Source of the DNA: Sipunculus nudus
Lineage: Eukaryota > Annelida > Sipuncula > Golfingiida > Sipunculidae
Assembly: GCA_026874595.1 (NCBI GenBank)
Contig: CM049312.1
Location: 77,227,429 to 77,291,428 of the forward strand
Direction: 5' to 3'
Length of the DNA: 64,000 nt
Of the stretch, positions 49,656 through 54,689 are shown one piece after another. Below the pieces are notes generated by a model that saw only the letters and a list, made by a program, of their open reading frames with translations, ran no database searches and was not told where the DNA came from. Positions within the stretch are counted from its first letter, which is position 1. Every line of letters begins with the position of its first letter. Both the position numbers and the translations under genes were made by a program.

Positions 49656-50110
49656 GGCGGGAGAGGGACTGGATGCATTATCATTGGTTCCTCTGACGAT
49701 AATACCAAACACAAAAAAGCCAAACCAGAAAATTCCCAAGGTGCAACTTAAAATGGTTCCATCTCTCCACTGAGGGCCCTGAATTAACTTGTTAAACCGA
49801 ATGTGAGACAAACTAGTCCAGTGTCTCATATTGTCTTTAGGAAAATTTTAATTGCATCTAAAGTTTAAGTCGTGAAAAATTTCATTTGTTTACTAATATC
49901 ATGCAAAATTTGTCTTTTAGTTATCAGAATACGAAATTTGTTTTTAGAGATTTTATGCAAGTATGAGTAGTTTTGTGTGAATATATTTGTGACCTTTACA
50001 TGCATATATTATAACTGGTGATTCCATCAGAATGAAAGGGGGTTTCCCTAGGTTCTTTTCCTAATTGTATCCGCCAAAACAGAGTTTTGCGGATACTATG
50101 TTTTCAGCTG

Positions 50111-50142
50111 GCCGCCGCCGCCGCCGCCACCGCCGCCGCCGC
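50111..50142. repeat. (CCG)n trinucleotide run
   Basis: About ten CCG/GCC units with one CAC interruption, inside the 5' part of H1. Confidence 0.9.
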
Positions 50143-50261
50143 GTAGGTGTCCGGAGAACTCCTCCGTAACCGCTGGGCGGAATTTTCCGAAACCCGGGAT
50201 TATGTTCAGGTCACATGTGAACTGCTGCGCCCCGATTTTGTTATGACCTCTGACCTTTCCT

Positions 50262-51835
50262 TTGCGCTCTGCGTCCGTTTGTGCGTCTGTTTCCACACAT
50301 AAACCCACATATCTCGGGAACCGTTTGACCGATCAGGAAAATTTTTTTGCACAAATGTAGCCCTCGGAGAGCTTTATAACATACACCAAAAATGGTGGCG
50401 CCACCTGCAACCATGTTTGCACAGTGTCCATCTGTTTGTCTGCCTTGGGTTAAAATCACTCATATCTCTGCAGTGACTTGACTAATTCACCTGAAATTGG
50501 GCATGCGTAAACATCCTGGATAGCTTTTCTGATTTTATGACAGGTGGCGCCACCTACATTCACGTTTACGCTGCAGACATCCAAGCTCATATCTCGGGAA
50601 CCGTTTGACCGATCAGGAAAATTCTTTTGCACAAATGTAGCCCTTGGAGAGCTTTATAACATACACAAAAAATGGTGGCGCCACCTGCAACCATGTTTGC
50701 ACAGTGTCCATCTGTTCGTCTGCCTTGGGTTAAAATCACTCATATCTCTGCAGTGACTTGACTAATTCACCTGAAATTGGGCATGCGTATACATCCTGGA
50801 TAGCTTTTCTGATTTTATGACAGGTGGCGCCACCTACATTCACGTTTATGCTGCAGACATCAAAGCTCATATCTCGGGAACCGTTTGACCGATCAGGAAA
50901 ATTCTTTTGCACAAATGTAGCCCTTGGAGAGCTTTATAACATACACCAAAAATGGTGGCGCTACCTGCAACCATGTTTGCACAGTGTCCATCTGTTTGTC
51001 TGCCTTGGGTTAAAATCACTCATATCTCTGCAGTGACTTGACTAATTCACCTGAAATTTGGCATGCGTATACATCCTGGATAGCTTTTCTGATTTTATGA
51101 CAGGTGGCGCCACCTACATTCACGTTTACGCTGCAGACATCCAAGCTCATATCTCAGGAAACGTTTGACCGATCAGGAAAATTTTTTTGCACAAATGTAG
51201 CCCTTGGAGAGCTTTATATCATACACCGAAAATGGTGGCACCACCTGCAACCATGTTTGCACAGTGTCCATCTGTTCGTCTGCCTTGGGTTAAAATCACT
51301 CCTATTTCTGCAGTGGTTTGACTAATTCACCTGAAATTCGGCATGCTTATACATCCTGGATAGCTTTTCTCATTTTATGACAGGTGGCGCCACCTACAAT
51401 CAAGTTTACGCTGCAGACATCCAAGCTCATATCTAGGGAACCGTTTGACCGATTGGGCCAAAATTTTGCATGTGTATAGATCTCACATAGCTCTTTATCA
51501 TACGCAAAACTGGTGGTGCCACCTGCAGCCATGTTTGCACAGCTCCCATCTGTTTGTCTGCCATGGGATAAAATCACTCATATCTCGGCAGTGGTTTGAC
51601 ATATCTGCCTAAAATTTTGCAAGTTTATACATCCCCGACAGCTCTCTTGATTTTATGACAGGTGGCACCACCTGCATTCTAGTTTATACAGCAGATATCC
51701 AAGCTCATATCTTGGGAACCGTTTGACCGATTGGGCCAAAGTTTTGCATGTGTATAGAGCTTTCTGGATTTTTTGGTAGGTAGCGCAACCTACATACACA
51801 ATTTGGCTGCAGACATCCATGCTAATATGCAACAC
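50262..51835 (+). repeat. 280-bp tandem array inside H1, itself a 131+149 dimer
   Basis: CAGGTGGCGCCACCTAC recurs at 50541, 50821, 51101 and 51381, exactly 280 bp apart, and in decayed form near 51659. A second copy of the palindrome GGTGGCGCCACC sits 131 bp into each unit (for example 50674-50685) and leaves 149 bp to the next. The two halves share word order (ctcatatctc, tttgac, aaatt-t-gca), so the unit arose from an older roughly 140-bp repeat. The three 70-73-codon plus-strand open frames at 280-bp intervals are in different phases and are products of the array. Confidence 0.9.
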
Positions 51836-51900
51836 TTCACCCGTTCCACTCTGATTTAGGCGGATACAAGTAGTCGCTTGTCGACTACCCGTATTCTAGT

Positions 51901-52250
51901 TAAAATTTGATAAACAAATTCTTAAAACATTTGCACTACGTGGCACTGTTGCCTTTTTCATTCTTAAAATCTGGTCTCAACACAATGATTATACATTATC
52001 TTGTAGTAAAATAAAAGACAGTGATGTATATCTCATCAACAGTCTAGTACTGGTCATGAGACAAATTCTTACGAGTCTTAGACTTGCATGGTCTCAAAGG
52101 TTCTGATTTTAGTCTTAGTCTTGTAGCAAAATTGTCTCAGTCTCTTAATTTTGGCTATAGTATGATGACAAGTTTTGTGAAGCATGTACCAGTCATGATG
52201 TGTGAATGGGAGATTTCCTCAACAAAAGGAAATAAATGTCCTCAGGTTTG
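51901..52250. other. Spacer between H1 and H2
   Basis: About 350 bp. 52025-52160 contains tctcaaagg, agtcttagtcttg and gtctcagtctct, words like those of the 41-bp satellite on the other side of H2. Confidence 0.4.
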
Positions 52251-54689
52251 TTTGTTTTTAGCTCAGCTGACTTTCAGTCATGCTGGGCTATAGCGATGGG
52301 TCTTTGTCCGTCGTCCTTCCGTCTGTCCGTCCGGCCGGCCGTCCGGCCGTTAGCAGGGCACAAATCGTAACCGTAGGGGCTAGGGCCATGAACCCTATGC
52401 AGTCTTAGAGGTTATAAAAAGATCTCCTTGCAAACCTGAAATTAGGTCACTGCGACCTATATTCTCGAAGTTATATGGTGTGTTTGCACCCCCCAGAAAT
52501 AACTCTTTGAGACAAAATTTTCATCCCAAACCTTCCATCTTTCACATACAGCTCACCTACCAACAGGGGAAGAACCATAATTTTTTTTAGGTCAAAAGGT
52601 CAAAGGTCAAGGTCACAGGAGCCTCTTCTTTGAAAAGCCTGTGGATGCATTTTAAGCCAACCCTTTCATCCCAATTCTTTGATTTTTCACATATAGCTCA
52701 CCTACTAAGTTGGAGAAGAATCCTATAGATTTTGAGGTCACAAGGTCAAAGGTCAGGGTCACAGGATCCACTTCTTTGAAAAGGTTGTGGACACATTTCA
52801 AGCTAGACTTTCATTCCAAACCTTCCAGCACTGATATCGCTTCTCTGCCAACAGGGGAAAAGACCTGTTGATTTTGAGGTCAAAGGTCAAGTTCACAGCA
52901 CCCACTTCTTGCGTGGAGTCATTTTCAGGCAAACTTTTCAATCTGTACCTTCCATCTGTCATATATGGCTTACCTACCAAAAAGGGGAAGGGCCTATTGA
53001 TGTGGAGGTCAAAAAGTCAAAGGTCAAGGTCACAATATTTAATTGTTCTAAATGCTTGTGAGCATATTTCAAGTGTAACTGTTCAACCCAAACCTTCAGT
53101 CTTTCACATACGCCACATCTATGCATCACTCAGTTTGACTCAAACTTCATATTCATGGGTCTTTTTGCTTGAATAGATAACTTATTGATTTTGGGGTCAG
53201 CTGGTCAGCAGGTTAAAGGTTGCAGGTCAAAGTTATTCACCCATTGGTTGCCAAGTAATTACACCAGATTTAAGTGGTTAGTAGTTACCCATCATTTAGA
53301 AAGAATCCAGTTGATATATGGGCAAAAGGCCAAGGTCATAGGTCAGGGATGTTCACAATTACTTATTTTATAGACCATCTCTATTTTTCTTGTATATATA
53401 ACCATCCCACTCCAGCTGGTACATCTCCCTGTGTGGCTGTAATTGTGAGTGACACTGGTGACATATGACTCCCTTTTGTATCAGCCTATTAAGTGATAAG
53501 GCTCAGTGATAAGTACCTCGTTACTTCATAACAAAAACACTGTGTCAGAATGCTTCAGCCAGGCATTAAGACACTGAGAGTATAGTATTAAGGTTTAGCT
53601 ACTGATTTATAAGATGATGGGAACATTTTGCAGTTTATTTTATGGAATCCTAGCAATAAACTTAGTTTCCTAGATATCTGAATATTTTAATATATATCAC
53701 CACATATAAAAGCAAGTGTTTGTTCTCATAATATGTGGATGTGTACCTTGATTTAGGATGGCTTTTTGTTTTATTTCAAGACTCTTAGTCATGCTTTCTG
53801 CATTTCTTTTCTTTCAGGCTTGGCAGTTTACCTACCCTGCTGACCCCATTGAAAAGCAGAGTGATAATAAAAAATATTGGACTTACACTTTTTACAATCG
53901 CATATCTATAAATCTGATATGAGGGCCTGGACATGCCTTTTGAATTATTTTGGGCATTCATTACTGGATAATTTGCCCAAGTTTGGTCTCTTATTGGAGA
54001 ATGTGGGATATCAAATGTCATACTTGTCAGAAATCCATAATGTCTGCCAGATAGCCACCTTAGAAATTCTTTCTTCAGTGCAGTTTCAGTAATTTTTCTT
54101 TAATGTTTGGTCCGATTTAGAGAATGTTTGTTGTCTGATTTCAGACTTGTCAGAAGTCCAATATGGCCACCAGGCAACCATCTTTTAATTCCTTTTGATC
54201 ATATTATCTCAAGAACAGTTAAAGTGAATGCAGTTGGATGTATATTTATGTAATCTTGTAAAGGATTGGGTCAAATATTTCTGAATAAATATTACCATCA
54301 TTTATAAAAGTGCAGTACAGTTGGCTTGTATTGAATAAAAATTCATACAGAAGCACCTGTTTCTCAATAATTCTTGCATGTATTTCCTTGATTTTTGCTA
54401 TATATTTTGATCTTATATTTTCCCTTTGTGGTGTTCCTTTGAGACTGACAGGTTTCAAGCAAGCTGTTGGAATAGTTCCTGATAGCTTAACAATCATGCA
54501 TTTTCCTCAGACCATCAATTCACTGTGTTTTAACCAGACATAGGTGATATATATTTCTGTTGTCATAGAAAATTTTCAACAAATTGGCAAATTGGTTCTT
54601 CAAAATTTGACTGGAAGTTGTGAATCTCAGTCCATGATGTCACAGGTCATGCTTGGCAGCTGAGCGTCATGACCAATGGGTCACTTGTT
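52251..54689 (+). mobile_element. Helentron-like non-autonomous element H2
   Basis: The 5' end is tttgtttttaGCTCAGCTGAC (arm at 52261-52269). The 3' end is CAGCTGAGC (54657-54665), hairpin TGACC-aatg-GGTCA (54670-54683), then CTTGTT. The arms are exact reverse complements. A T-rich edge at both ends and the subterminal hairpin fit Helentron/HINE elements, which insert at TT. Behind the 5' end is a gcgatggg...gtccgtcgtcc head and a gggcacaaatcgtaacc segment, followed by an AGGTCA-rich array. No Rep/helicase ORF. Confidence 0.75.
52525..53350 (+). repeat. About 140-bp tandem array in H2, each unit with AGGTCA repeats
   Basis: ccaaaccttcca-cttt-acata--gct-acctac-aa--ggggaag recurs about every 130-150 bp, each time followed by tandem AGGTCA words: 52589-52616, 52735-52762, 52876-52896, 53006-53034, then weaker ones near 53200-53235 and 53330-53348. 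AGGTCAAAGGTCA is a direct repeat with one-base spacing, and TCAAGGTCA is an extended half-site. Confidence 0.8.

Follow-up and report, generated by a model that had tools for sequence, protein, structure and literature searches.

The closest described systems to the elements treated here are Helitron2, DINE-1 and the Helentron-associated interspersed elements (HINEs). Helitron2 has asymmetric terminal inverted repeats (ATIRs) and a 5' hairpin, and for it one pair of Culex elements with compensatory changes has been reported, together with a model in which pairing sets the end point (PMC3627910). DINE-1 combines subterminal inverted repeats (subTIRs), an inner repeat, a (CCGT)n(CTGT)n microsatellite, central repeats, a 3' stem-loop with inferred compensatory changes and a TT target (PMC2374699). 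The Rep motif is ExQxRG(S/L)(P/L)HxH, in which S marks Helentrons (PMC4067079). We have analyzed a stretch of 64,000 nucleotides of the Sipunculus nudus genome (the window, C7:77227429-77291428), which holds two adjacent elements, H1 and H2. Both have defined ends, near-identical genomic copies, conserved arms, and hairpins at the 5' and the 3' end; H1 inserts cleanly, and Rep sites of the Helentron pattern are found in the genome. Because their ends match the published Helitron2/Helentron layout, H1 and H2 are likely HINEs, i.e., two non-coding interspersed families mobilized by a Helentron-type Rep-helicase whose gene lies elsewhere in the genome, a reading to which we give a probability of about 0.92.

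A preliminary description of this DNA had taken H1 and H2 for separate families that share one end design of the rolling-circle kind, and it had proposed collecting their genomic copies, with exact ends and empty sites. The copies and their ends bear the claim out. Copies were searched for in one genome of 1.43 Gb in 153 contigs. A first look gave 8740 H1 candidates, of which the best 40 were scored (the 41st was a 103-base piece), with edges set by BLAST coordinates, and 28 of the 40, chosen by closeness to the query and including the window copy, were read base by base. The features of H1 in the window are as follows.

50065..51899, forward strand: H1 element in the register TTG...CTAG, from full-length copies, read ends and empty sites
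50065..50075, forward strand: 5' arm (ATIR) TTGTATCCGCC, 11 bp, exact complement of 51859-51869
50067..50096, forward strand: 5' hairpin from DNA folding, its second half GTTTTGCGGATAC being the inner repeat (IR)
50111..50142, forward strand: GCC microsatellite, length differing among copies
50308..51731, forward strand: central 280-bp tandem repeats, 5.1 units
51859..51869, forward strand: 3' arm GGCGGATACAA, complement of the 5' arm, invariant in 28/28 copies
51870..51888, forward strand: 3' hairpin GTAGTCG-CTTGT-CGACTAC, 7-bp stem
51896..51899, forward strand: terminal CTAG, then host TT, in 28/28 copies read

All 40 scored H1 copies are full length, running from query base 1-5 to 1839 at 98-100% identity. 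The 28 copies read share their left edge and end in CTAG followed by TT, and each diverges from the column majority by 0.3-1.5%. Both arms are unchanged in all of them, and only one of the first 40 positions and one of the last 50 vary. None of 2000 shuffles of both end regions reached the 11-bp arm match, and the 5' hairpin (50063-50102 folded, -10.9 kcal/mol, z -6.8) was equalled by 0/200 shuffles, the 3' hairpin (51855-51900 folded) by 4/200. The 3' arm ends 30 bp before the 3' end, and the interior contains no frame of at least 120 aa. In both H1 and H2 the 5' arm is also one half of the 5' hairpin, a feature absent from the preliminary description.

Two good empty sites, at L008 and L012, show how H1 inserts. 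In each the junction is ungapped, with neither duplication nor loss. The joined flanks of L008 (...GCAGTAA|TTGTTATTG) match an uninterrupted relative at 82.9% overall, the gaps lying elsewhere and the nearest about 11 bases off. L012 is an H1 inside an H2-related copy, and its uninterrupted relative is the H2 of the window; here the empty-site alignment (...ACTTA|TTGATTTTG) is 87.8% identical overall, while L012 itself reads ACTAA. Weaker sites of the same form (about 75-79%) were found for L014, where a gap lies two bases off the junction, and for one relative of L025; the junction of a second L025 relative has diverged too far to be judged. H1 thus inserts into A|TT without duplication or loss, as the ungapped junctions demonstrate, and its arm starts at the very 5' end, on the edge that the empty sites define. 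Since the empty sites assign the three bases before TTG to the host, the left edge is 50065 and not the 50061 first proposed; the right end at 51899 stands, so the span is 50065-51899, give or take the shared TT. The triplet before TTG is TAA in 21 copies, TTA in 4, TCA in 2 and TTT in 1. The base before TTG is therefore A in 27/28 copies, and T follows the 3' end in 28/28. A TT or T-rich target entered without duplication, as in HINEs, is seen for H1 at L008 and L012.

H2, 3' of H1, has unrelated sequence within ends of the same design. Of 3411 candidates 40 were scored, and both ends were read in 10 copies (of 39) besides that of the window.

52255..54689, forward strand: H2 element, from shared edges in scored copies and read ends
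52261..52288, forward strand: 5' hairpin from folding, its first 9 bases (52261-52269) being the 5' arm
52306..52349, forward strand: GTCC/GTCY/GGCC microsatellite-like stretch, read in the sequence
52519..53125, forward strand: central degenerate tandem repeats of about 145 bp
54657..54665, forward strand: 3' arm CAGCTGAGC, complement of 52261-52269
54670..54683, forward strand: 3' hairpin, with one mismatch in the window copy
54684..54689, forward strand: terminal word CTTGTT, in 10/10 other copies read

Full-length copies make up 34 of the 40 scored (query base 1-8 to 2439, 96-100% identity); three of the remaining 6 are cut on the left and three on the right. The left edge is at 52255 instead of 52251, as first given, and the right end at 54689 holds. 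In the 10 copies read this edge consists of at least five T followed by AGCTCAGCTGA, with AGCTCAACTGA in L063. The 5' arm follows the T run by one base, and the candidate cut lies within the run. The 5' hairpin (52261-52300 folded, -8.7 kcal/mol) was equalled by 1/200 shuffles, the 3' arm ends 24 bp before the 3' end, and the interior again has no frame of at least 120 aa. The matched arms and terminal word noted earlier recur in the copies of both families: in 28/28 for H1, and for H2 with the 5' arm intact in 9/10, the 3' arm in 9/10, CTTGTT in 10/10 and a perfect 3' palindrome TGACCCATGGGTCA in 9/10. The end signatures are TTGTATCC...CTAG and AGCTCAGCTG...CTTGTT, the second carrying the H2-type terminal word. 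Both families therefore have the HINE arrangement of a 5' arm near the 5' end within a 5' hairpin, a 3' arm about 20-30 bp from the end, and a 3' hairpin.

A sister family, X, was found by a strict structure scan of 264 kb (the window plus 200 kb of neighbouring sequence, no shuffle control). The 11 hits were three H1-type elements and eight in palindromic, repeated or AT-rich stretches; H2 was missed because its hairpin has mismatches. Two H1-type elements lie beyond that of the window in the 200-kb neighbour, and one of them has a different arm and defines X. An X-family element also starts in the window.

63966..64000, forward strand: beginning of an X-family element that extends past the window edge

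Of 5573 first-look X candidates 40 were scored, and 8 copies reaching the right end, including the query's own place, were read. The left edge is common to 40/40 (query base 1-6), with main pieces 94-97% identical apart from the query's place, and 19/40 reach the right end of the query in one or several pieces. X begins with TTGTATCCCCAGACAAAGTCGGGGGATACTATG and has the 3' arm GTCTGGGGATAC; among the copies read, 8/8 have an intact 5' arm, hairpin partner and 3' arm, 6/8 an intact 3' hairpin and 7/8 CTAGTT. Where H1 has G after GTATCC, X has C, and both the hairpin base and the 3'-arm base that pair with it are G in place of C. The difference between the two families is one change matched in three pairing segments, as pairing predicts.

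Inside its H1-type ends X carries H2-like GGTCAAAGGTCAAGGTCACAGG repeats. Since X joins H1-type ends to H2-type arrays, end modules and arrays have likely been exchanged among families. Two further arm variants were glimpsed, each at one end, namely GGTGGATAC at a 3' end and GGAGGATAC in a 5' half. The GGAGGATAC type was rejected as a third arm variant; among six relatives with the 5' end read, three have exactly the X form TTGTATCCCCAGAC and three have decayed forms. A wider scheme, which we offer tentatively and consider unlikely to hold in full, is that several HINE families, among them H1 and X and likely others, would use one end machine, in which arm changes occur only in concert at three places, the canonical-Helitron CTAG end and A|T site are kept, and central arrays are freely swapped. 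A three-way pairing code, in which the 5' arm pairs with either its hairpin partner or the 3' arm, would then set which elements a given Helentron enzyme copies.

A Helentron-type enzyme source is very likely present in the same genome, judging from protein-domain and motif matches. PF14214, with 150 of 195 candidates scored, matches this genome 143 times and has no match in 14 control genomes. The genome was also searched with a DNA pattern standing for QRGSPHxH, in which the serine codon slot also allows T, C, R and W; we take Q to occupy the free place before R in this Rep pattern. It matched 56 times, against 7 for the reversed pattern, and the four matches for which letters are shown all have serine. 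Of the 56, 54 overlap a PF14214 match or lie no more than 60 bases from one, and two stand in open frames of 2342 and 2420 aa. Rfam gave no match within the window, and Pfam none on two window frames. In one upstream part of a Rep-helicase gene, L075 (C11:50388001-50390000), we observed a tandem-repeated N-terminus, KKQERLxSQRIRQxKxLDCETPE.

The layout of H1 and H2 agrees closely with that reported for Helitron2 (Bao and Jurka, 2013; PMC3627910). There the 5' arm lies 0-2 bp from the 5' end within a 5' hairpin, as in H1 and H2; the 3' copy lies 20-30 bp from the end before the 3' hairpin, compared with 30 bp in H1 and 24 bp in H2; and a pair of related elements has compensatory changes, as H1 and X show for one base. 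The shared rolling-circle requirement suggested in the preliminary description accordingly stands as a design, but it is not new, having already been set out for Helitron2 (PMC3627910). H1 and H2 differ from Helitron2 in sequence, and H1 and X end in CTAG and sit in A|TT. The plan is also that of HINE and DINE-1 elements, with subTIRs, an inner repeat, a microsatellite, central tandem repeats, a 3' stem-loop, a T-rich target left unmodified and no coding capacity (PMC4067079; PMC2374699). Cg_HINE of the Pacific oyster likewise resembles our elements in body plan, as it has satellite-like central repeats and a GTCY-type microsatellite like that of H2, and in its group 2 related flanks enclose unrelated arrays, like H1 and X (PMC7492417). 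FoHeli, a Helitron2 of Fusarium oxysporum, is alike in its asymmetric arms, hairpins and self-insertion composites. The insertion site of FoHeli1/2 lies between TNAT and T, and with the cut moved one base inward 27/28 H1 sites also fit TNAT|T, but these elements are fungal, start with TCAG and end with ATTTT (PMC5148889).

With these systems as a guide, the enzyme would nick at the T-rich junction, unwind the element and copy one strand, and copying would stop at the 3' hairpin. The 3' arm would compete with the 5' hairpin for the same sequence and thereby mark the end point, as proposed for Helitron2 (PMC3627910). The arrays of central tandem repeats are likely passengers that arose before each family spread, as shown for H1, and that were exchanged among end modules.

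For H1 this order of events can be read from the array. All 28 copies read have five units, and sampling by likeness to the query favours equal length. Units at the same place are on average 98.5-99.3% identical between copies, whereas different units (1-4) inside one copy are on average 94.9-97.6% identical. The H1 array was built before the family spread, because same-place units across copies are closer than different units within a copy. An H1-type copy of 1454 bp with fewer units is present in the 200-kb sample, and in X the unit number varies, with none to three extra 602-1288 blocks and no implication of the ends. The earlier suggestion that the ends drive array growth is thus not supported.

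Some copies form dimer-like composites. At L069 and L070 (C8:73789540-73793131) an H2 cut at 1138 passes directly into a full H2, giving two 5' ends and one 3' end, and the far flank of the full H2 is not H2. L072 (C1:54373017) and L074 (C14:37309981), which lie on different chromosomes, are X composites that share one internal junction, 1174|6. Both pairs resemble the arrays of several 5' ends and one 3' end that a review ascribes to rolling-circle replication (PMC12628747). Insertion followed by deletion may be an alternative origin of these composites.

Several observations weigh against assigning H1 and H2 to the HINEs. The 9-bp arm of H2 by itself is weakly beyond chance (27/2000 shuffles), and the 3' hairpin of the window H2 folds no better than shuffles (44/200 as good); the H2 ends are weak on the window alone and solid through the genomic copies. 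Insertion evidence comes from empty sites for H1 and from the left T run in 10/10 copies read for H2. Only 19/40 X copies reach the right end, and the match of 16 others stops at 1216-1226. Compensation rests on a single difference between two families, H1 and X, and among H2 copies a 5' arm change in L063 is not followed by the 3' arm, nor a 3' arm change in L051 by the 5' arm, the pattern expected if single copies decay. The analysis found no autonomous element bearing the ends of H1, H2 or X, one RepHel upstream region having been read: L075, 2.1-4.1 kb 5' of the Rep at C11:50385293, which contains neither an H1/H2-type end nor a perfect 8-12-bp hairpin and whose Rep belongs to a family without the QRGSPHxH pattern. 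The autonomous partner of Cg_HINE is also unresolved (PMC7492417). Lastly, the CTAG end and A|T junction of H1 fit canonical Helitrons too.

This last point leads to the nearest rival, namely that H1 and X are closer to canonical Helitrons (Helitron1) and merely Helentron-like. CTAG, which fits CTRR, closes 28/28 H1 and 7/8 X copies read, A precedes TTG in 27/28 and T follows in 28/28 H1 copies, and RepHel families without the QRGSPHxH pattern are present in the genome. However, a canonical Helitron has 5' TC, 3' CTRR, an A|T site and no 5' hairpin, whereas H1 and X start with TT, H2 ends in CTTGTT, and the TT at both borders lets the cut register vary by up to two bases. Moreover, the 5' hairpin and the matched asymmetric arms of H1 and X are missing from canonical Helitrons (PMC3627910), and we consider this rival improbable. 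That H1 and H2 are miniature inverted-repeat transposable elements (MITEs), with short terminal inverted repeats and cut-and-paste movement by a DDE transposase, is much less probable still. They do carry inverted arms near their ends, and DINE-1 was once read in this way (PMC2374699), but the 3' arm is set 24-30 bp inward of the end, the 5' hairpin uses the same arm, the 3' hairpin comes after it, and H1 has no target duplication. Finally, tandem arrays that are not mobile and have inverted repeats nearby by chance could be invoked, as equally long complements occur at same-spaced places of the repeat-rich window (6/1240 for H1, 20/1229 for H2). The sharp shared ends in dozens of dispersed copies speak against this, and it is refuted by the empty sites for H1 and the shared edges for H2, leaving it a negligible chance.

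Other repeats in the window include an orphan piece of H1 and the elements called H3, which the preliminary description had put forward as a third case of arms plus hairpin.

20427..20776, forward strand: H1 internal-sequence fragment without H1 ends, 85% identical to 50196-50545
37965..38886, strand not assigned: H3 copy, a long terminal-inverted-repeat element

H3 does not have the arm-plus-hairpin layout. The terminal inverted repeats of the copy at 37965-38886 are 72.5% identical over 160 aligned columns with TTA outside both, and the H3 at 46.56 kb is an inverted relative of the right end of the 38-kb copy (68.8% over 269 columns) in which no second end was seen. H3 was therefore rejected as Helitron2-like on its long inverted repeats and flanking TTA, in the one window copy that has two ends; by its TTA it is perhaps, we assume, of the PIF/Harbinger kind. 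Separately, long inverted repeats nested in each other mark an element at 42365-44129, its 129-nt arms being 81% identical and its outer 31-nt arms 87%, and 28115-33047 holds a 72-bp tandem array of about 69 copies at 95%. A 41-bp tandem array at 54865-56720 starts about 175 bp after the end of H2, and words akin to it (TGGTCTCA, TCTCAGTCT) also occur at 52.08-52.14 kb, between H1 and H2.

Collectively, our results add two, and with X three, new families of a known kind, the HINE-type families H1, H2 and X, to the repeats of this genome. The spread of H1 is recent, as the copies read are nearly identical. A large-scale test of arm covariation across many families was not found in the searched literature, as far as its available text extends. 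Their candidate copies number in the thousands and at least two sister arms coexist in this genome, which makes these families a test bed for arm pairing in rolling-circle termination.

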